IMG/VR virus record: IMGVR_UViG_3300020334_000009
Location: 1 to 26,956 of that record
Origin: a virus
Strand: one strand, 5' to 3'
DNA length: 26,956 bases
The notes beneath the pieces were generated by a model, which was not told the origin of the DNA, made no database searches, and was given only the letters and a program-made list of their open reading frames with translations. Shown piece after piece: positions 3,467 to 22,211 of this stretch (the first letter of the stretch is position 1; the number at the start of each line of letters is the position of its first letter). The translations under genes and the position numbers were made by a program.

Positions 3467-3836
3467 TAAAAACCTCTTCCCTTGAATAATGTCGGTCAAC
3501 TATGTCACATAGTATATCACCAAGTAAATTTTTAAAATCTTTGTTAAAATAATTTGGATCATCTTCTGGTAACCCATTTCTGTCAATTATATTATAGTTA
3601 AATTTAAGTGTTGCTGGTAGTGTATTGTTATTTGCATCTTCTACTGATGCAACTTTACCATACTTATATATCACACCATCATATTTACCACCTTTTATTC
3701 CAATACAATCTTTGTGTTCTTTTTTATTTGTTACCATAACATAATCGTCTGCAATATTACCAAGATATCTTTTTGAGTAGTCGTATGCACCTCTACTCGC
3801 TGATATCTGACTCAGCGACTCTTTCTTGTCCACCAT
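3414..3836 (-). CDS. Hypothetical protein between UvsX and gp41
   Basis: A 140-residue protein with no recognised domain. ATG at 3836 is preferred over GTG at 3857 because AAGGA lies 8 nt before it. It overlaps the end of uvsX by 44 nt and the helicase start by 53 nt, so it is embedded in the recombination/replication operon. The N-terminus contains a Tyr-rich segment ([10 protein letters not shown], 17-26) followed by beta-strand-like sequence with glycine turns ([15 protein letters not shown], about 46-60). The C-terminal ~25 residues are hydrophilic and charged, probably disordered; their coding is constrained by the overlap. Position next to UvsX and gp41 suggests an accessory replication or recombination role, as inference only. 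Confidence 0.8.
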
Positions 3837-4842
3837 ATCTAAATTCCTTTTTTGCACATTCTTCTAAAATATCCATTACATCTTGTGTAAAGTATTTTTT
3901 AGGGTCATTTAAAATTGTTTTACCATACTGTTTAGAACCATCTGGTAATTCATATCTAGTAGATATTTTTTTAAATACATTGTATTTTTCTGCAAGTTCA
4001 AGTAATCCATAATATCTATCAAGACCTTTATTGTAAGTTAACCTAACATCAACCATTTTATTTTCTACTGTAAGTCTTGATTTAAAGTTTTTACAATGTA
4101 TAATATTTCCTACAACTTCAGTTCCGTCCTTTTCTTTTTTCTTTGAAAGATAAATGATAGATGAAGCTGCATATTTTAATCCAGAACCACCACCCATTTC
4201 TTTTGTAGGAAACATAGAACCTACTACATCATATGTGTGATTTGTTACAACCATAGGTACTTTTGCTTTACCAAGTTTTAAAGTCAACACTCTAAATGCA
4301 GCTTTGAGAACTTGAGCACGAGTCATATCTCTTGTTTCTTTTCCTTCAGCAGTATCTTCAACTTCTTTTGTTGTTGATAACATACCAAGTGAATCTAATG
4401 CAAGAAATAATGGTCTTCTCATAGATGTATCTTGATTGATATAACTATCTAAAACTTTTAATGATTGTGTTCTAAATTCTTGTACTGTAGTCACTGGTAG
4501 TATCACCATTCTTTCTGGGTCAATACCTCTATCGATTACCATTTGTTTAGTAATTGCACTTTCACTTTCAAAGTATATTACTCCACCATCTGGATTTTTA
4601 TCCAGAAAGTTTTTACACATACCCATAAGAAAAAATGTTTTACCAGTTGCACTTTCACCAGCGATTGCAGTAATCTTGTTTGCTGGTAGTCCACCATTTA
4701 TTGAACCAGATAGTAATGCGTTGAAAGCATATGAACCAGTATCAATAAATGTATCAACATCACCAGCCTCAACTCCGTCCGAAACTAATGATGCATATTC
4801 GTTACCAGTTGTTTTGATAACTTCTTTTAAAAAATCAGGCAT
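3793..4842 (-). CDS. uvsX: UvsX, RecA-like strand-exchange recombinase
   Basis: A 349-residue RecA-fold recombinase, somewhat shorter than T4 UvsX (about 390). It would coat single-stranded DNA, pair it with homologous duplex and drive recombination-dependent replication. Visible motifs: Walker A GESATGKT (62-69), VIYFESESA (88-96) carrying the catalytic-type glutamate, Walker [10 protein letters not shown] (145-153, D150), VVTNHTYD (198-205, the L2-side nucleotide sensor) and the glycine-rich [10 protein letters not shown] (215-224), typical of UvsX/RecA loop 2. ATG at 4842 has AAGGAG 6 nt upstream. A sigma70-like promoter with consensus -35 and extended -10 (4861-4888) lies immediately before it, so uvsX and gp41 can be expressed apart from the genes upstream. 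Confidence 0.96.
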
Positions 4843-4855
4843 TCAAATCTCCTTT

Positions 4856-5317
4856 TCAACATTGTAACATATTTTTTATATTTGTCAAGTTATGTATTTT
4901 TAAATACACATATCCTTTTAATTTACCTTTACTCCAACTTATTTCTGAGACTTTTTTCATACCAATCTTCTCATAAAATTTACAGGCTCTAATGTTATCA
5001 CTTCTTACTGTACACCAAACATTTGTATTTACATAATCAAAAAATTTGTTCATTATTTTGACAGAGTTAACTTTATCATTTTCTTTTACCATATCTTTAA
5101 TAATTACATCACCTTTGTTTACTTTATAATTACCAAATTTTTTGGATACTAAATATTTGTGGTAAATTATAACTAATCCATTTTCATATATTACTTTTTG
5201 TTTTTCCAAACATTCTTCAAGATAATCCTTTCTCATATAAGGAAATATATCAGCATACTTGTAAAAAATATGAAAAATTTTGTAATATGTTTCATAATTG
5301 TTTTCAGCGTGTATCAT
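4856..5317 (-). CDS. GNAT-fold acetyltransferase-like protein
   Basis: A 153-residue protein whose C-terminal half carries a GNAT signature: VRSDNIRACKFYEKIGMKKV (104-123) matches the N-x-x-A-x-x-(F)YEKxG(F/M) element that closes the acyl-CoA site, followed by a final beta hairpin (GYVYLKI, 135-141). The N-terminal half is aromatic and helical (residues 8-40) and unlike common GNATs. Expected chemistry is acyl transfer from acyl-CoA to an amine. Its ATG overlaps the stop of the PLP enzyme (ATGA), so it is translationally coupled to it and, through it, to the SPPY-type methyltransferase. GNAT-fold enzymes are known in phage DNA hypermodification, including the Mu Mom family; that this one acts on DNA is inference from context. 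A small-molecule or protein acetyltransferase is the alternative. Confidence 0.8.
   Translation of the reverse strand: MIHAENNYETYYKIFHIFYKYADIFPYMRKDYLEECLEKQKVIYENGLVIIYHKYLVSKKFGNYKVNKGDVIIKDMVKENDKVNSVKIMNKFFDYVNTNVWCTVRSDNIRACKFYEKIGMKKVSEISWSKGKLKGYVYLKIHNLTNIKNMLQC
4861..4888 (-). promoter_or_regulatory. Sigma70-like promoter for uvsX
   Basis: Minus strand: TTGACA (4888-4883), 16-nt spacer, TACAAT (4866-4861) preceded by TG one base before the hexamer (extended -10). The predicted start near 4854 leaves a leader of about a dozen bases carrying the AAGGAG site of uvsX. The -35 lies inside the 3' end of the GNAT gene. Confidence 0.65.
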
Positions 5318-6132
5318 CTTATCAAATTAGTATTACCTATTACCCAAAAACAATTCTTAACTTTTGTATCTATCATATTTTCCATCATCTCATAAGCTTT
5401 AGATTCATAAATCATATCTAATTCAAACCCTACATTTTTTTTAAGTAATTTATGATAAGGGTATTTACCTTTAACAAATTCAAAATCATATTCCCAATTC
5501 ATACCATCTAAATTTTTATATACAGATTCTGTTCTATCATAACCAAAAGGTTGTAATGCAACAATTTTGAATTGTTTATTATATTGTTTTTTTCCTTCTA
5601 GTATTCCAGTTAAAGTGACACCACTTCCAACTGGAACATATAATACATCACAATCAACATTTTCTACTTGTTCTGATATTTTACCTATGATAGATTCTCT
5701 ATGAGTTTTGGCTGCATAACCAAATAATATTTTAAACATAGGTTTATCTTCAGATAACTTATTTAAGTTGTGATATAATACATTATTAAATCCTTGACTT
5801 TCACTTAATATAACTAATTCTGAATCTAATTCTTTACACATTCTCATCGCTTTGTGTTTAAGTGCCTTTTCTATTGTTGTGTTTCCAAACCCTATGATTG
5901 ATTTTAATTTAAATTCTTTTGCAACTCTTGATACTATCGGTGATTGTGGTGAAATAATTGAGGCTGCAGTTGATATTGTAGAATTACATTCTTCTTTAAT
6001 ATAGTCTAAATTCTTTTCTACTAAATCTCTACACTGTCTTATCTTACCACCACTTATAAAATTATCGTATGGTTTGTATAAGTCTTCCCTCTTAAATAAA
6101 ATATTACTATATTCTTCAACTGGAGTTAACAC
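5314..6132 (-). CDS. PLP-dependent enzyme, ACC deaminase / D-cysteine desulfhydrase-like
   Basis: A 272-residue fold-type-II pyridoxal-phosphate enzyme. The N-terminus reads LFKREDLYKPYDNFISGGKIRQ (12-33): GGK-x-R resembles the GG(N)K-x-R lysine motif of 1-aminocyclopropane-1-carboxylate deaminases and D-cysteine desulfhydrases, making K30 the candidate Schiff-base lysine. VPVGSGVTLTG (166-176) is the glycine-rich phosphate-binding loop, and FWVIGNTN (262-269) sits where that family has its pyridine-ring TGG element. At 272 residues it is shorter than typical members (about 330). The start is GTG at 6132, overlapping the methyltransferase end by 7 nt; it overlaps the GNAT gene by 4 nt. It could be a metabolic amino-acid lyase, but coupling to a methyltransferase and a GNAT suggests a nucleobase-modification route. 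The substrate is unknown. Confidence 0.88.
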   Translation of the reverse strand: MLTPVEEYSNILFKREDLYKPYDNFISGGKIRQCRDLVEKNLDYIKEECNSTISTAASIISPQSPIVSRVAKEFKLKSIIGFGNTTIEKALKHKAMRMCKELDSELVILSESQGFNNVLYHNLNKLSEDKPMFKILFGYAAKTHRESIIGKISEQVENVDCDVLYVPVGSGVTLTGILEGKKQYNKQFKIVALQPFGYDRTESVYKNLDGMNWEYDFEFVKGKYPYHKLLKKNVGFELDMIYESKAYEMMENMIDTKVKNCFWVIGNTNLIR

Positions 6133-7391
6133 AAAAAATTTTCCAATGTACTAACTCTACAATGTTTAAATATATCTTTATTTTTATCTTTACTAAAATA
6201 CCATATATTCTCAATATATATTTTATTCATAAACTCATCCATTTTTTTCTTATCAAAGTTTCCATCTTCGTCTTTAAATACAGATGCACCTTGTGGTCTT
6301 TGCATAATTCTCATACCAACTTGACCCATAAAATGTGGTAATAACATATCAACGAGTTCATCACCAGAACGATATCTTTTGTTTTTTACTTTAGGGTCTA
6401 ATATGTTTACCATCATTACACCATCGTCACTTAATGATTCAAATGTTTTTTGTGATACTGGTAGATAAAAGTTATCTCTCCAAGATTCATATTCATTAAA
6501 TTTAAACCACGATTGTAATTCTTCTTTTTCACCACCCTCATTATATCTCTCTGTGGAAAAATATGGTGGACTTGTAAATGCACAATCAACATTTTTTATC
6601 TCGTCCCAAGGCAAGTCTTCTGCACCACAATTATATATTTGTGTAGTTTTTTTATTTCCAGTTAGACTATTCCAGAACTCAATCATATCTTTATATCTTT
6701 TAAAAGTATTTGGGTTGGGGTCACAACCAATATAGTGTGTTGCATTTGAGGCGAAGAAACCAGTAAGTCTATCACCCCAACCCATAGATGTATCTAATAC
6801 AGTCTTTGCATCTGTCATATCATATATTGTTTTTGCAACTATTGGTTTAAATTGTGTTGCAATATAAGTACCTAATCTAAATGACATAATATAAATTCTA
6901 CCATTCAGTTCTTGAGTATCATTAACACCACGAAAGATAGGCCCAAATGCACCCCACAGATTATCACCATCATTCCACCTTTTTACTGGTGATTTGTAAC
7001 CATAAGAACCACACTCTAATCTTAAATCATTCATAAAAGAATCAGAACAATAATTAAATTTAGGTGGAGCACTAATTACACCTAATCCATATTTACTATA
7101 TGGATATTTGTAATCATCATATTTTTCTAAGACTCTATCTTTTTGGTCTAGTGTTATATAATCGGTAAAGTCTGCACTTTGTAATTTACGGAAATTATCA
7201 ACAACCTTTTCCTTTTCAAATTCTGCAAGTGGAAATGGTGGTTTTTCGTTTGTAATATATTCTGCAAGAGCCTTACGAAAATCTTCTTTACCATAATCAT
7301 CTATAGTTTTAAGAAACAATTCTTTTTTCATAACTGGTAAACCAGTTTCATCAGAACATTTTTTTAATAAATCATATAAGTCTTTATTCAC
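6126..7391 (-). CDS. DNA methyltransferase-like protein, SPPY type, with a large N-terminal domain
   Basis: A 421-residue Rossmann-fold methyltransferase. The SAM-binding motif I is VLDTSMGWGDRLTGFFA (198-214), followed by the acidic motif II IGCDPN (221-226, D224) and catalytic motif IV FTSPPYFS (272-279), the (T)SPPY form common among N4-cytosine and some N6-adenine enzymes. Strand/helix repeats follow (SDDGVMMVNILD, 321-332). The ~190 residues before motif I are not a usual methyltransferase element and may recognise DNA. The start is GTG at 7391, sharing one base with the gp43 stop (TAGTG) with GAGG upstream; an intragenic sigma70-like promoter (7444-7471) lies about 50 nt before. It heads a three-gene overlapped set with the PLP and GNAT genes. 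It may methylate phage DNA or prepare a base for further modification. Confidence 0.88.
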   Translation of the reverse strand: MNKDLYDLLKKCSDETGLPVMKKELFLKTIDDYGKEDFRKALAEYITNEKPPFPLAEFEKEKVVDNFRKLQSADFTDYITLDQKDRVLEKYDDYKYPYSKYGLGVISAPPKFNYCSDSFMNDLRLECGSYGYKSPVKRWNDGDNLWGAFGPIFRGVNDTQELNGRIYIMSFRLGTYIATQFKPIVAKTIYDMTDAKTVLDTSMGWGDRLTGFFASNATHYIGCDPNPNTFKRYKDMIEFWNSLTGNKKTTQIYNCGAEDLPWDEIKNVDCAFTSPPYFSTERYNEGGEKEELQSWFKFNEYESWRDNFYLPVSQKTFESLSDDGVMMVNILDPKVKNKRYRSGDELVDMLLPHFMGQVGMRIMQRPQGASVFKDEDGNFDKKKMDEFMNKIYIENIWYFSKDKNKDIFKHCRVSTLENFLC

Positions 7392-9877
7392 TAAAAGAAA
7401 TCCTCAAGTGTACCTTGTGTACCATAAGTTCTATCGATATCCCATTTTATCACATTTAATATTAATGTCAAGGGGTCAATAAAAACTTTTTCAAACTGTG
7501 TTTCATAATCAACAAAATCATGTATCTTAAATTCTTTAGGTATCTTAGTAATGTATGTGATTACATTTGAAGTAAAAGGATTAGGTTGTTTTAGATAAAC
7601 AAACTTAATCTTATCACCCTCTTGTATCAATGGGTATTTGTATATTAGTTTGTTTTGTTTTAACTTGTTGTTGTAAATCAACGCACCTTTAACATGAATC
7701 GGTGTTGATTTTTTAAATGTAGTACCACTATCAAAAAACTTTGATAATCCTTTTACAGAACGAGGGAAAGAAATAAGTTCTGGATTTACTTTAAAAAACT
7801 CTTCACGAAAATTAATAACAAATTTATTTAATTCAGTTGCATCACTTGTCATTATAAGTTCAAGTGCATCTTTAATCTTTTGTCTACACATTGCAGGCGT
7901 TGATGACTTAACGGCCTCAATACCCATCATTTTTAACTTTGGTTCTTTGTATGAAACACCTTCACTATCCCACACATTAAGAATATATCTTTTCTTTGCA
8001 ACCCAGATACCTTTATCTGCAATCACTTCTCTTTTCATAATCATCTTGTTTGCATATGCATTTGTATATTGTTTAAGTTGTTCGTATGATTTTGTAATGT
8101 ATGGTTCAATAGATTCCGATGCAACTTTATCTAAGAAGTTTATTGTTTTAGATAGTGCGTTATCACTTTTAATTGTTTGAGTAACAAGTTTATCCATAGT
8201 CAAATAAACAGAATCGGTATCAGATGCAATTACATAATCATCTTTTGTTTTTAAAACATTATTGAGATATTGATTAAGTTTGTTTTCAATCCAACGAATA
8301 GATAACTGACCACTTTTTGTAATACCTTCTGCAATCGCTTTATCGTAATAACGAAAGTATTGATTACCTATTGCACCATAAGCAGAGTTCAAAGAAATCT
8401 TACGAGCCATCTGAATATTGTTATAACGACTAATCAATTTTAGATACTTTTTATCTTTAGTATTTTCATATTCTTGTTGTGCAGATAACATTTTCTTTTT
8501 GTAAACAACTCGTTCATCGTAAAGTTCTTGCATCATCTTTGGTAAAAAACCTTGTTTGTCTGTTCTGAATAATGCACCATTTGGTGTCATAGTAGTTTTA
8601 TCTGGTATGTTTAGTTTTATACCTTTTAACATATCGTCAACAGAAATATCTTGATGACAACTCTTCAATAATGTTTCTGGTGATAGATTGTATTGCATAA
8701 TTAAATGTGGATATAGTGAATTTAAATCAAAAGACATAACCCACTTATGTAAACCAGTAATTGGTTCTTTTACATATGCACCCTCGTATTGTTCGTTTTT
8801 ACTGTGTGATGATTTTTGTGGTATAACAATCTTTCTTTTTCTTAAAAAATTATATATTAGTATATCCCAATATTTTACTTGTCCAAATACATCATTATAA
8901 TTTACTTTTGCCTCATAGGCCATAGTCAGTAATAAACTAATCAAACCCATTTTATCTTCTAACTTATCAACGATTTCCACATCTTGTATATTATAATCAA
9001 TAAAGGATTGAAAATCTTTTTCATACCATTCTTTAAAAGTTTCAAAAGGGTTGTCATCTTTTTTCTCACCGAGTTCAACAGATGCAATATTATCGAGTCT
9101 ATATGATTCTTGTCTGGTGTAAGTAAATTTTTGATAGAGTTGTAAGTAGTCTAGTTGTGAAATACCCATAATATCATAAACTAAATGATTTCTACCCATA
9201 GAGTAAACTTTTCTTGAGCTCACATTACCCCAAGGTGATAGTTCTTTCATTTTAGATTCACCACAAACTTTAAAAATGCGATTACACAAATATGGTATAT
9301 CAAAGAAATCTGTATTCCAACCAGTTACAACATCTGGATAATTCTTTGTCCAAAAAGACATAAACTCCATAATTAAATCGTGTTCGTTAGGACAACGAAT
9401 ATAAGTTACATCTTCTCTTGTATTTTTATAAGGTTGAATACCCCACACTATAATCTTTTTAGATTGTTGATTTTTTACTGTAATTGATAATAAAGGTTCT
9501 ATTGCAGACTCTGGATTAGGAAATCCATTTTCACATTGTACTTCTATATCAATAGTAAATGTAGATATCTTATCTTGATTCCAATTTACTTTTTGTGGGA
9601 ATGTGTCTGAAATATATGTGTATGCGAATCTATCTAATCCATAGATAAGGTGAGGCTGACTTTCATATCTTAATATAAAGTCTTTTGCATCTTTGATAGT
9701 TTCGCATTTATAGGGAGTAACACTTTTACCTTCGAGTGTTTTCCATTCAGTTTCTTTTAAAACTGGAACGAATAGTGTTGGTGAATATTTAACTTTAAAA
9801 TTAAGTCTTTGATTACCACTCACACCACGAACTAAAAGAAAATTACCCCACTGAATAACATTAGTATAAAAATCCAT
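7391..9877 (-). CDS. 43: Family B DNA polymerase, gp43
   Basis: An 828-residue replicative polymerase, shorter than T4 gp43 (about 900). The 3'-5' exonuclease motifs are intact: Exo I TIDIEVQ (108-114, D110/E112), Exo II TGWNTDFFD (185-193, D190) and Exo III YNIQDVEIVD (295-304, D299). Polymerase motif A is FDLNSLYP (383-390, D384), motif B RKISLNSAYGAIGN (492-505) and motif C ASDTDSVYL (551-559, D553/D555). The C-terminus ends in TLEDFF, a hydrophobic tail like the sliding-clamp-binding tails of T4-family polymerases. ATG at 9877 lacks a Shine-Dalgarno sequence and lies exactly 6 nt after a TATAAT box, so a leaderless mRNA is possible. No intein or split is seen. It follows RegA, which in T4 represses translation of replication genes. 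Confidence 0.97.
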   Translation of the reverse strand: MDFYTNVIQWGNFLLVRGVSGNQRLNFKVKYSPTLFVPVLKETEWKTLEGKSVTPYKCETIKDAKDFILRYESQPHLIYGLDRFAYTYISDTFPQKVNWNQDKISTFTIDIEVQCENGFPNPESAIEPLLSITVKNQQSKKIIVWGIQPYKNTREDVTYIRCPNEHDLIMEFMSFWTKNYPDVVTGWNTDFFDIPYLCNRIFKVCGESKMKELSPWGNVSSRKVYSMGRNHLVYDIMGISQLDYLQLYQKFTYTRQESYRLDNIASVELGEKKDDNPFETFKEWYEKDFQSFIDYNIQDVEIVDKLEDKMGLISLLLTMAYEAKVNYNDVFGQVKYWDILIYNFLRKRKIVIPQKSSHSKNEQYEGAYVKEPITGLHKWVMSFDLNSLYPHLIMQYNLSPETLLKSCHQDISVDDMLKGIKLNIPDKTTMTPNGALFRTDKQGFLPKMMQELYDERVVYKKKMLSAQQEYENTKDKKYLKLISRYNNIQMARKISLNSAYGAIGNQYFRYYDKAIAEGITKSGQLSIRWIENKLNQYLNNVLKTKDDYVIASDTDSVYLTMDKLVTQTIKSDNALSKTINFLDKVASESIEPYITKSYEQLKQYTNAYANKMIMKREVIADKGIWVAKKRYILNVWDSEGVSYKEPKLKMMGIEAVKSSTPAMCRQKIKDALELIMTSDATELNKFVINFREEFFKVNPELISFPRSVKGLSKFFDSGTTFKKSTPIHVKGALIYNNKLKQNKLIYKYPLIQEGDKIKFVYLKQPNPFTSNVITYITKIPKEFKIHDFVDYETQFEKVFIDPLTLILNVIKWDIDRTYGTQGTLEDFF
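7444..7471 (-). promoter_or_regulatory. Intragenic sigma70-like promoter before the methyltransferase cassette
   Basis: Minus strand: TTGACA (7471-7466), 16-nt spacer, TAAAAT (7449-7444) with a TG-x extension. It lies inside the last part of gene 43, with the predicted start about 46 nt before the GTG at 7391. It is inside coding sequence, so chance occurrence is possible. Confidence 0.45.
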
Positions 9878-16987: not shown

Positions 16988-17482
16988 TCACCTATTACAT
17001 TGTTTAAGTTTAACTTCTTGTAATCCCAACCCTGGCATTACAACATTAAGTGTTTCTATTCTACACTCAATTCTTTGATTTGTCAAGTCCCTAACTTGAC
17101 AGTTTAAATTCTTGGTTGATTCTAATGTTTCTGGAACAAACTCTTGTAACAATCTTTCTTTTGCACGATTAACTGCATTTTGACAAGCTTGGTTTTCTGA
17201 CATATCTGGTGTGAATATATAATCCTCTGAAGTCATATACCATTTACCTTGTACTTTTGCTTTGATTACCACTTTACATTTTTTTGTTTCTTTAAAATAT
17301 TCTGTTACTGTTTTATCTTTTACCTCTAGTGATTCTATTGTTCCTTGCATTGTAGATGTAGTTTGATTATCATATTCACAAGATTTTGCATCTACATTAT
17401 ATGCAACAAACAAACCAAAAAGAAAAATAAATATTGTTGTTAATACTATAAATCTTATAAACCAATCGTCATTATTATTCAT
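16988..17482 (-). CDS. Exported cysteine-containing protein of unknown function
   Basis: A 164-residue protein with an N-terminal hydrophobic segment (11-28) and a possible cleavage site after VDA (30-32). The mature part has six cysteines (C35, C69, C100, C128, C140, C162), an even number compatible with three periplasmic disulfides. The middle includes a helix (ENQACQNAVNRAKERLLQEF, 96-115) like those of LPP20-associated envelope proteins, flanked by beta strands. No enzyme motif is visible. It overlaps the methyltransferase stop by 8 nt and lies 3 nt before the entericidin-like gene, heading the envelope cassette. Confidence 0.82.
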   Translation of the reverse strand: MNNNDDWFIRFIVLTTIFIFLFGLFVAYNVDAKSCEYDNQTTSTMQGTIESLEVKDKTVTEYFKETKKCKVVIKAKVQGKWYMTSEDYIFTPDMSENQACQNAVNRAKERLLQEFVPETLESTKNLNCQVRDLTNQRIECRIETLNVVMPGLGLQEVKLKQCNR

Positions 17483-18797
17483 AAAACCCCTCTAATGTTG
17501 ATTTAGTATCTACTGATTCTATTCTTGCACTCGCAATGTTAAAATATTGTTCTTCTTTTTCTATACCTACAAATTCAAAATTCTCTTCTTTTGCAGCCAT
17601 ACCAGTTGAACCACTACCCATAAATGGGTCTAATACTGTACCACCTTTTGGTGTTATTAATCTACATAAGTATTTCATTAACTTAATAGGTTTCACTGTT
17701 GGGTGTGTATTTTTACTTGGTGCTTTTTCACTACCAAATTTACCAGATGCAGAATTAACATCATCTTTATAATTACCAATACCACCACCTCCACCTTGTG
17801 TTTGTTTTATTGGAAAATTATCTAATCCTTGATTTCTTTCTGCCTTTGATGTTTTTGCACAATAGAAATATCGTGATGCAGAACCCTCATCTCCATATGC
17901 AGGCATCAAACCACTATCTACATTGTTATGTTTGTTCCAACCAGAACTTTGACCAAATTCAGTTCCTGCTTTTCTTTCTCTTGAAACATTACTACTTTTT
18001 GTATTTGGAAATATATCTTTTACGACATCACTTCCATCGTGCATAACATTTGATGGAAATCTACCTCTAGGGTCTGCATCTGCATATTCACTACCCTCTG
18101 CTTTCATACCAGAGTTATTATTTGTCCATACACCATTTTCATCTCTTGACTTACGAACAACCTTTTTTCTTTCTACATTTTCTGTATTACCCTCAACTCT
18201 ACATTCATCTATATTAATACCACCAGTTCTATGTTTTAATACATTATCTACAACTGATTTTTCTGATAAAGGTTTTCTTGCAAGAACTAAAGGTTCGTGT
18301 GCTGGTTTAAGTGCAGTACCCCAACCCTCCCATTCAGAATTACCTTTTGTGTAAATATGATTTCCAGTTGTATTATTAGAGTTCCAACCATTACCATCAT
18401 CAAATGGTTTTACATTACGAGTTCTTTCCCCTACTGCAACTCTCTCGTTACCTAGTTTTTTATCTAATGTCTTACCAATATTCATACTCTTTGGAAACCC
18501 AGAACCATATAACCACATTACTTGGTCACGAATCTCAAAACCAGCATCTTCTATTGCAACTGCCATTCTATGATATGTCCTACTTCCAGAAAATGCAAGT
18601 AAATGTCCACCAGGCTTTAATACCTTAAAACATAGTTCCCAAGTTTCTTTTTGAAATGCAATACCAGTAGAATCCCAACTTCTTCCCATAAAACCTAATT
18701 CATAGGGTGGGTCTGTAACGATAGAATCAACGAAGACCTCATCTTCTATCATCATTTTTAATACTTCTAAACAATTTCCGTTATGTAATCTCATCAT
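17475..18797 (-). CDS. DNA methyltransferase, N4-cytosine/N6-adenine type (DPPY)
   Basis: A 440-residue beta-class-like DNA methyltransferase. Catalytic motif IV TDPPYELGF lies near the N-terminus (28-36), and the SAM-binding FxGxG motif DPFMGSGSTG near the C-terminus (390-399), i.e. the IV-before-I order of N6-adenine or N4-cytosine enzymes. THPTVKPIKLMKYL (364-377) just before it is the usual motif X. Between them is a long segment (about 115-345) rich in Gly, Asn and Ser that probably carries the target-recognition domain, with conserved-looking RFPSNVMHDGSD and YFYCAKTSKAERNQGL elements. No restriction endonuclease is adjacent, so it is an orphan methyltransferase, probably protecting phage DNA or regulating. 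It overlaps gp46 by 4 nt (ATGA). Confidence 0.94.
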   Translation of the reverse strand: MMRLHNGNCLEVLKMMIEDEVFVDSIVTDPPYELGFMGRSWDSTGIAFQKETWELCFKVLKPGGHLLAFSGSRTYHRMAVAIEDAGFEIRDQVMWLYGSGFPKSMNIGKTLDKKLGNERVAVGERTRNVKPFDDGNGWNSNNTTGNHIYTKGNSEWEGWGTALKPAHEPLVLARKPLSEKSVVDNVLKHRTGGINIDECRVEGNTENVERKKVVRKSRDENGVWTNNNSGMKAEGSEYADADPRGRFPSNVMHDGSDVVKDIFPNTKSSNVSRERKAGTEFGQSSGWNKHNNVDSGLMPAYGDEGSASRYFYCAKTSKAERNQGLDNFPIKQTQGGGGGIGNYKDDVNSASGKFGSEKAPSKNTHPTVKPIKLMKYLCRLITPKGGTVLDPFMGSGSTGMAAKEENFEFVGIEKEEQYFNIASARIESVDTKSTLEGFYE

Positions 18798-20756: not shown

Positions 20757-21247
20757 TCTTCTTTACAGAGACCCATAATCAAACCTAAAAACATTTTGCC
20801 TGGTGGTGCAATAATTCTGATACCAGCATTTTCAGGCATTACTATAAAACTTCCCTCTTTTAATGGTAGTTTAAATATACCTTTCTCACCAGTTTGTATG
20901 TCTAAGTCAATACAGTCTGGTGTACAACAAGGTACATATAACATTCTATGATGTGATGGAACATCTGTTGCTTTATTGAAATCAGCTTGAACTACATAAT
21001 ATTTACCAAATCCAACATCTTCTAATAACTTCATTAGTTTATCAAATAGTGGTTGCATCCAATCGTGTTCAGTTACATCTGCAAACCTTTTATCTTCTGT
21101 AAAAACATCTTTTGCAACATCAAGAAAATTCTCGTGAAAGGATAACGCTTGACTATGCAAAAGAGTTTTATCATTCTTATTACGATTTTCACCTATCCAA
21201 ATAGAACCTTTTGGATGTACATCTTTTATTTCACTAAATTTAATCAT
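20753..21247 (-). CDS. Hypothetical 164-residue protein after pstS
   Basis: No recognised family. The C-terminal third (KGIFKLPLKEGSFIVMPENAGIRIIAPPGKMFLGLIMGL, 122-160) reads as a run of short beta strands with Gly/Pro turns, reminiscent of a cupin-like barrel, but no metal-binding His pair is placed convincingly. A CC-x-x-x-C cluster lies at YVPCCTPDC (109-117). The N-terminal half is alpha/beta with aromatic residues. It overlaps the end of pstS by 8 nt, suggesting translational coupling and possibly a related role, for instance in nutrient stress, but this is only positional inference. No signal peptide. Confidence 0.8.
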   Translation of the reverse strand: MIKFSEIKDVHPKGSIWIGENRNKNDKTLLHSQALSFHENFLDVAKDVFTEDKRFADVTEHDWMQPLFDKLMKLLEDVGFGKYYVVQADFNKATDVPSHHRMLYVPCCTPDCIDLDIQTGEKGIFKLPLKEGSFIVMPENAGIRIIAPPGKMFLGLIMGLCKED

Positions 21248-22211
21248 TAAGTGGTATGAGTCCTTTATCTATTAAATATCCGTCTTCACCTATCGCTCTA
21301 TCAGATGTAAATTCTTTTGTATATTCTCTAATGCCTGGAATCACAGCTGCGTGTGCATCTTTTACATAAAACCATAATGATCTAGAAATAGGATATGTAC
21401 CATTACTAATTAATTCAAATTCTGGACTAACACCATTAATTGTTGCAGGCTTTACTTTATCTCTATTTTCATCTAAAAAAGAATAACCAAATATACCTAA
21501 TGAATCTGGGTTTGTTGTTAATTTTTCAATTATTAGATTGTCGTTCTCACCAGCTTCTACATATGCTCCATCTGTTCTTATTGCACGACATTCAGATTTA
21601 TATAATTTTTTATTACTTTCTTTAAGTTTTTTTCTCTCTGGATAAGTTTTACAACCTTTTTCAATACCAAGTTCATTAAGTGCATCTCTAGTACCAGATG
21701 TTGGTGGTGGGCCGTAAACGACAATAGGTAAGTCTGGATATGTTGGATTTATCTCATTCCATTTTTTATATGGATTAGGTTTTACAGTTTTACCATCAAT
21801 GTCTGCTGGTACATCTTTTGCAAGTGCAAGATATAAATCTCTTAAAGATAAATGAAAGTTAGCACCTTTTTTTGAGTTTGCAATCGCAATACCATCATAT
21901 CCTATTTTAACTTCTGTAATATCTTTGATACCATTCTTTTTACAATTATCTATTTCGGTTTGTTTTATTCTTCTTGATGCATTTGTTATATCTGGGTGTT
22001 GTGTTCCTAGTCCAGCACAAAATAATTTTAGTCCACCACCAGAACCAGTTGACTCAACTACTGGTGTTTTAAATCCACTAGTCTTACCAAATCGTTCTGC
22101 AACAGTTGTTGCAAATGGATATACAGTTGAACTACCTACTATTTTAATTTGGTCTCTTGCAAATAAATTTGTTGCAAAAAATAATGTTAATACAAAAATT
22201 AAGTTTCTCAT
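21240..22211 (-). CDS. pstS: PstS, periplasmic phosphate-binding protein
   Basis: A 323-residue phosphate ABC-transporter substrate-binding protein. It has a signal peptide (MRNLIFVLTLFFATNLFA, 1-18), then the phosphate-site loops GSSTVYPF (26-33), STGSGGG (54-60), NASRRIK (77-83), GYDGIAIA (104-111) and TSGTRDA (171-177). In the host it captures phosphate for the PstCAB transporter; phage copies are thought to sustain phosphate uptake for genome replication. It is an auxiliary metabolic gene seen in several marine phages. AGGAG overlaps the stop of gp47 and lies 6 nt before the ATG, so it is transcribed with gp47. No Pho box or separate promoter is apparent in the 9-nt gap. Confidence 0.96.
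   Translation of the reverse strand: MRNLIFVLTLFFATNLFARDQIKIVGSSTVYPFATTVAERFGKTSGFKTPVVESTGSGGGLKLFCAGLGTQHPDITNASRRIKQTEIDNCKKNGIKDITEVKIGYDGIAIANSKKGANFHLSLRDLYLALAKDVPADIDGKTVKPNPYKKWNEINPTYPDLPIVVYGPPPTSGTRDALNELGIEKGCKTYPERKKLKESNKKLYKSECRAIRTDGAYVEAGENDNLIIEKLTTNPDSLGIFGYSFLDENRDKVKPATINGVSPEFELISNGTYPISRSLWFYVKDAHAAVIPGIREYTKEFTSDRAIGEDGYLIDKGLIPLND

Follow-up and report, generated by a model that had tools for sequence, protein, structure and literature searches.

A methyltransferase with exchangeable partner genes in a marine T4-like phage: a candidate modular DNA-hypermodification cassette

The IMG/VR virus record IMGVR_UViG_3300020334_000009 is a metagenomic fragment of 26,956 bases, which we analysed over its full length (the window) and which comes from a marine T4-like phage; by the UvsX of the window, the nearest cultured phages are Methylophilales phage Melnitz (82%) and Pelagibacter phage HTVC008M (75%). 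Here we study three genes on its minus strand, in the slot flanked upstream by the gp43 DNA polymerase (7391..9877, minus strand; PHROG 262, E=0) and downstream by the UvsX recombinase (3793..4842, minus strand; PHROG 97, 7e-96). In order from gp43, they encode a core methyltransferase of the N6/N4 amino-methyltransferase type (MT; 6126..7391, 421 amino acids (aa)), a fold-type-II pyridoxal phosphate (PLP) enzyme nearest to 1-aminocyclopropane-1-carboxylate (ACC) deaminase and D-cysteine desulfhydrase (5314..6132, 272 aa, GTG start), and a GNAT-fold acyltransferase (4856..5317, 153 aa). The gp43 stop overlaps the MT start by 1 nucleotide (nt) (TAGTG), MT and PLP overlap by 7 nt and PLP and GNAT by 4 nt (ATGA), and uvsX follows GNAT after a 13-nt gap with an AAGGAG ribosome-binding site of its own. 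The overlapping trio between gp43 and uvsX reported in the original prediction, which was made from the letters of the window, is therefore confirmed.

We assigned MT from its Pfam family, its AlphaFold model and its fold matches. The protein matches N6_N4_Mtase (PF01555) over residues 268-408 at 2e-6, with 28.3 bits against a cut-off of 26.7; this is its only Pfam match, and it does not belong to the C5-cytosine methyltransferase family PF00145. Motif I (D200-TSMGWGD-R208) precedes motif IV (S274-P-P-Y277), and D200, S202, G204, G206, R208, S274-P-P-Y277, E281, Y283, Q293 and S294 are invariant over 47 relatives, in agreement with the SPPY-type DNA methyltransferase originally proposed. The model (pLDDT 91) has a Rossmann methyltransferase fold with a Z of 14.7. 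Its top fold matches score close together, at about Z 13-15, and include O-methyltransferases, Trm11/Trm14/TrmN, METTL5 and PacII, a DNA enzyme; the MT profile gave no useful match against PDB sequences. Because these matches mix DNA and RNA enzymes, the fold leaves the choice between a DNA and an RNA target undecided; methyl transfer to DNA is a putative activity. Residues ~105-404 align with Rossmann methyltransferases and a motif-X-like stretch starts near residue 171, and the extra N-terminal part is therefore approximately residues 1-105, shorter than the ~190 residues first estimated.

The PLP enzyme scores 1e-6 against Pfam PALP, under the curated cut-off, and its family profile retrieves ACC deaminase 1j0a from the PDB at 2e-8. 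K30 is nearly invariant and GSGVT stands at 169-173; K30, the serine of SIISPQ, GSGVT and the tyrosine of MIYESK align with the lysine, serine, phosphate loop and tyrosine of ACC deaminase. The enzyme thus has the Schiff-base lysine and the phosphate loop of the fold-type-II PLP superfamily, and its earlier placement in the ACC-deaminase/D-cysteine-desulfhydrase type, from K30 and GSGVT, holds. Judged by the curated family models TIGR01275 (18.2 bits vs 289) and PRK14045 (13.2 bits vs 550), both of which it scores far below, the window enzyme is a distant relative in the ACC-deaminase branch and not a member. In the same alignment the C-terminal threonine of 1j0a (FIHT) is replaced by isoleucine (FWVI), and substrate or chemistry may therefore differ. 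A tblastn search of cultured phages returned a single weak match, and a single-protein scan of bacterial genomes returned no relatives; the corresponding scan with the PLP alignment yielded no conserved stretch.

Single-sequence profile matches of the GNAT protein are weak. Its AlphaFold model (pLDDT 91) confirms the GNAT fold that had been predicted, with Z 15.2 to GNAT 2pc1 over 139 residues (root-mean-square deviation 2.5), and its other fold matches are RimI/NAT/PaiA-like. The family invariants are F25-P26, T103-V104-R105 and N108. The analogy with Mom that had been drawn for this protein fails at the family level: the hhalign probability is ~0.1% and there is no PF25680 match, as opposed to 2e-75 for Mu Mom, and we reject the window GNAT as a Mom homologue. 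In cultured phages, tblastn with GNAT found no match.

The trio is real and not a chance arrangement, since it recurs in other contigs. Near-identical trios are present in L002, L003, L004/L082 and L108 and a partial one in L083; L043 has the trio at ~71-76% identity, and L098 has the full trio at 37/46/46% identity to the window for MT/PLP/GNAT, and the two GNATs are closest to each other. All three genes are under purifying selection, with a ratio of nonsynonymous to synonymous divergence (dN/dS) of ~0.01-0.3. We scanned 2.9 million viral contigs for PLP and GNAT homologues independently of MT, a scan confined to near relatives, and the matches lay almost only in genes beside an MT. Counted over all loci examined, including loci found via MT, 49 of 56 PLP genes lie no more than six genes from an MT, 3 are at a contig edge and 4 lack one; among these four, L099 is at a contig end and L101, L103 and L106 have a small methyltransferase adjacent or one gene away. 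GNAT genes are accompanied by MT in 77 cases out of 86, the remaining 9 being at contig edges and none being without MT. The original prediction had proposed this co-occurrence check and had regarded PLP and GNAT genes without the methyltransferase as evidence against itself; the counts point the other way.

To characterize the partners of MT we examined its relatives, which number at least 600 in IMG/VR among the matches listed. In the clade of the window, MT occupies the gp43-uvsX slot, with a variable cassette behind it. By Pfam or profile, its partners are the PLP enzyme, GNAT, an Asp/Asn beta-hydroxylase (AspH), alone or fused to GNAT, and a small second N6/N4 methyltransferase (small MT). 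Longer sets consist of PLP with a 2-hydroxyacid dehydrogenase and an asparagine synthetase (L006, L011), and of a distant thymidylate synthase homologue, whose best match is the methanogen type (3e-26), with asparagine synthetase and PLP, all overlapping (L279:782-5344, L285). Other MTs are accompanied by a polyamine aminopropyltransferase homologue (1e-38 in L097) and a 350-aa protein without a match in Pfam, PHROGs, NCBIfam or PDB (L097:4219-5937, L059:2445-4116, L169-L173), by Mom, by DUF6445 and, often, by a ParB-like protein and MazG. At least five ParB-like families, assigned by eye from GxxR/DGQxR-type motifs and some of them carrying a nuclease domain (HNH or GIY-YIG), are found repeatedly behind partners of the GNAT or small-MT kind (L073:7723-8748, L074:4354-5901, L030:8391-9863, L068:4997-6283, L076:4393-5526). 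The label 'o3414' denotes relatives of a common small neighbour gene, which is not a tailoring gene.

On a non-redundant MT tree of 145 rows the first partner of MT changes at least 47 times, an approximate count: the tree was built quickly, some of its branches are long, and its 'other' state lumps partners together. At 93-98% identity to one another, MTs have differing partners: PLP-GNAT in L002, small MT in L005 and PLP-dehydrogenase-AsnB in L006. In 22 of the 145 rows, among loci that include more distant MTs, MT is alone, as a solitary gene before UvsX. The idea that MT is never alone, based on the first 80 loci, failed once 139 further loci were added, and an obligate trio pathway is rejected because the partners vary and MT also occurs alone. 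The fixed order of base activation, side-chain formation and acylation that had been read from the trio does not survive either, as most relatives have MT with PLP but no GNAT, MT with GNAT but no PLP, other partners or MT alone. The results show that MT is a common core with swappable partner genes.

Several related arrangements were recorded alongside these. In a 109-kb contig a cluster following a peptide-deformylase-like gene (L107:6827-11911) contains a GNAT-beta-hydroxylase fusion, of which the GNAT part was judged by eye, together with PLP, a possible 2-oxoglutarate (2OG) oxygenase, small MT and MT. A protein of 250-261 aa overlaps MT by 4 nt at L229:2703-3488 (PHROG 7084) and L212:3979-4731. 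The partner in L226, a possible glycosyltransferase, gave a weak PseG match only (3e-4, far under the cut-off) and nothing in the PDB.

The spacing of the genes indicates what the partners are tied to. The distance from MT to the next gene is exactly -4 nt in 34 of 37 cases for GNAT, 31 of 35 for AspH, 15 of 17 for small MT and 21 of 39 for PLP, and the spacing from MT to UvsX is +3 to +218 in 30 of 32 cases. Cassette pairs are kept outside the gp43-uvsX slot as well (L090, L093, L097, L098, L132, L175, L239), where MT+PLP and MT+GNAT pairs with an MT identity of 33-54% are located ahead of gp43 or behind gp41. In the comparison of the window with L003, synonymous divergence (dS) is 0.11 for MT, 0.11 for PLP and 0.08 for GNAT, as opposed to 0.59 for gp43 and 0.35 for UvsX; trio values of ~0.1 against these higher flanks imply that the trio moved as one block.

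These data bear on a rival explanation, which we consider unlikely: MT would be an ordinary DNA methyltransferase producing N6-methyladenine or N4-methylcytosine, the slot an insertion hotspot, collecting unrelated accessory genes, and PLP and GNAT enzymes of free amino acids or other metabolites, chemically unlinked to MT. The slot is indeed highly variable, with endonuclease-like and ParB-like genes and segA in T4, and MT is sometimes found alone. A hotspot, however, does not explain why the 4-nt coupling is specific to MT and not to UvsX, why the same pairs travel outside the slot, why homologues of PLP and GNAT hardly ever occur apart from a DNA methyltransferase, or why the trio was transferred as a block. 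Co-occurrence, 4-nt coupling, off-slot pairs and block transfer thus favour a link of MT to PLP and GNAT that is functional rather than merely positional.

We investigated the target of the cassette through the genes that share its operons or occupy its slot. True Mom genes (PF25680, E ~1e-45), for which a scan covered 29 records, are in operons with MT relatives in four lineages. The arrangements are MT-Mom-UvsX (L201) and gp43-Mom-MT-GNAT-ParB-UvsX (L073/L136/L142), in both of which Mom is 4-nt coupled to MT, and gp43-Mom-x-MT-PLP (L095) and MT-PLP-x-x-Mom-small MT (L239, Mom position converted from contig coordinates). Mu Mom resembles the cassette as a GNAT-superfamily enzyme in a DNA-modification setting, and Mom is itself found in operons of MT relatives, but Mu mom differs from the window in that no MT or PLP gene adjoins it within the stretch read. 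In T4, the gp43-uvsX interval contains the dCMP hydroxymethylase gp42 and the beta-glucosyltransferase (beta-gt), and also segA; the slot and the DNA hypermodification are shared, whereas the T4 enzymes act by nucleotide-level hydroxymethylation and glucosylation. In Melnitz-1 (L145, 2154-6234), the slot has a C5-methyltransferase, a Tet_JBP oxygenase, a ParB-like gene and a P-loop kinase-like gene, mostly annotated as hypothetical; the first two are a cytosine-hypermodification pair in the same position, unlike the trio in their C5 chemistry and oxygenase and in lacking PLP and GNAT. The slot of cyanophages S-RIM2 and ACG-2014f has only small open reading frames, and the main gene of that of HTVC008M (L151 4653-5777) encodes a DruA (Druantia) domain protein.

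Given Mom in the operons, gp42 and beta-gt in the T4 slot, and the C5-methyltransferase with Tet_JBP in Melnitz-1, DNA appears to be the likeliest target. We regard it as quite improbable that the cassette instead modifies tRNA or rRNA, for example against tRNA-cleaving defences. Some of the fold matches of MT are indeed tRNA and rRNA methyltransferases whose motifs come in the same order, and amino-acid-bearing modifications such as 3-(3-amino-3-carboxypropyl)uridine (acp3U) are common in tRNA. On the other hand, SPPY and N6_N4_Mtase denote a DNA family, the enzymes that share MT operons or the slot (Mom, TET/JBP with the C5-methyltransferase, T4 gp42/beta-gt) are all DNA-modifying, and the slot sits among replication genes. 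The DNA-hypermodification locus of the original prediction therefore stands as the best reading of the Mom operons, the T4 slot and the co-occurrence, with DNA as its presumptive substrate.

Based on these results, we think it fairly probable that the trio represents one form of a modular cassette for phage DNA hypermodification, centred on the methyltransferase. Observed here are the identities at fold or superfamily level, the coupling, the co-occurrence, the block transfer, the exchange, and the company of Mom and base-modification enzymes. In the proposed mechanism, MT would use S-adenosylmethionine (SAM) to mark phage DNA at an exocyclic amine, either N6 of adenine or N4 of cytosine, translationally coupled and interchangeable enzymes, here PLP and GNAT, would remodel or add to this mark, and host nucleases would no longer recognise the modified DNA. 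The DNA target, MT acting first, the group transferred and the action of PLP and GNAT on it are all steps that we infer.

Several points weigh against this proposal. It is hard to see how a PLP enzyme or a GNAT would use a plain methyl group as substrate, and the transfer of another group by MT is a supposition. The PLP enzyme scores below its Pfam cut-off and its function is assigned at the superfamily level only, the RNA methyltransferases among the modelled fold matches of MT (Trm11, Trm14, TrmN, METTL5) make an RNA target possible, and MT, since it also occurs alone, may be a normal methyltransferase with a product that requires no further tailoring. The window, moreover, is a metagenomic fragment.

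Our preferred guess for the chemistry, a speculative and doubtful one, is the transfer of an amino-acid-like group, e.g. the 3-amino-3-carboxypropyl (acp) part of SAM; MT would then not be a methyltransferase and would place this group on the exocyclic amine of an adenine or cytosine base in DNA. We consider such a group because the families of the partners (PLP enzyme, N-acyltransferase, Asp/Asn beta-hydroxylase, asparagine synthetase, 2-hydroxyacid dehydrogenase) work on amino acids or on related oxo acids. The rotating enzymes would then edit the side chain by PLP-dependent deamination or racemisation, GNAT acetylation, beta-hydroxylation, amidation or reduction; equally possible, the partners would first alter SAM itself. 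Carboxy-SAM chemistry is not supported: CmoA (TIGR00740) is found in none of 24 related records, which are mostly fragments, as is the window.

A further alternative, which we hold to be highly improbable, is that the tailoring enzymes act on SAM or host signalling molecules and that MT is merely a co-regulated anti-restriction methyltransferase. ACC derives from SAM, and ACC deaminase is the nearest relative of the PLP enzyme. SAM depletion is a known phage strategy (PMC12783734). This alternative, however, leaves unexplained both the constant pairing with MT and the replacement of PLP, in the same position, by a beta-hydroxylase, Mom or a second DNA methyltransferase.

Three other genes of the window, all on the minus strand, were noted. 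A second, unrelated beta-class N6/N4 DNA methyltransferase (PF01555 1e-34, PHROG 67) lies at 17475-18797, a 2OG-Fe(II) oxygenase (PF13759 8e-14) that is possibly a further DNA- or protein-modifying enzyme at 1247-1864, and a phosphate-binding-protein-like auxiliary gene (PBP_like_2, PstS type) at 21240-22211.

In known hypermodification routes, the starting handle is a hydroxymethyl or carboxymethyl group at C5. The thymidine hypermodifications of phages ViI and M6, based on 5-hydroxymethyluracil (5hmU), use PLP enzymes and acetyltransferases and start from 5-hydroxymethyl-dUMP (5hmdUMP) with a kinase and an aG/PT-PPlase. Unlike in those pathways, the constant partner here is an amino-methyltransferase, and no kinase or aG/PT-PPlase gene of the 5hmU route was seen among the window proteins scanned. 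A parallel in organisation is the CmoA-CmoX-CmoY system of Synechococcus phage S-B43, a 5-carboxymethylcytosine hypermodification in which a carboxymethyl group, attached to C5 of cytosine by CmoX, is extended by a partner ligase (PMC12783734); CmoX therefore provides a phage precedent for the transfer of a group other than methyl. In both cases a methyltransferase homologue sets, or would set, a handle that partners elaborate: predicted asparagine-synthetase-like ligases and nearby ParB genes belong to the Cmo system (PMC12783734), and asparagine synthetase and ParB-like genes accompany MT. The two differ in that CmoX is a C5-cytosine enzyme (SPPC) using carboxy-SAM, whereas MT is of the N6/N4 type (SPPY) and has PLP, GNAT and beta-hydroxylase partners. 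The authors of that study found no N6 or N4 carboxymethyltransferase candidates linked to CmoA (PMC12783734). A cassette of the kind seen here, combining MT with a PLP enzyme, GNAT, Asp/Asn beta-hydroxylase, asparagine synthetase or aminopropyltransferase, is not described in the searchable literature; a prior mention is possible in an older base-modification prediction paper that lay outside the search.

The wider cassette, modular and widespread, is more interesting than the trio itself. DNA hypermodifications let phages escape restriction and CRISPR nucleases and are a source of DNA-labelling enzymes, and the lineage studied here, marine, T4-like and very common, has a core N-type methyltransferase whose partners are exchanged like cartridges. 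If MT transfers an acp-like group, marine T4-like phages would possess a combinatorial set of DNA bases decorated with amino acids, and a hypermodification route separate from hydroxymethyl and carboxymethyl handles. More generally, the cassette probably serves as a mix-and-match kit by which viral DNA is chemically disguised.

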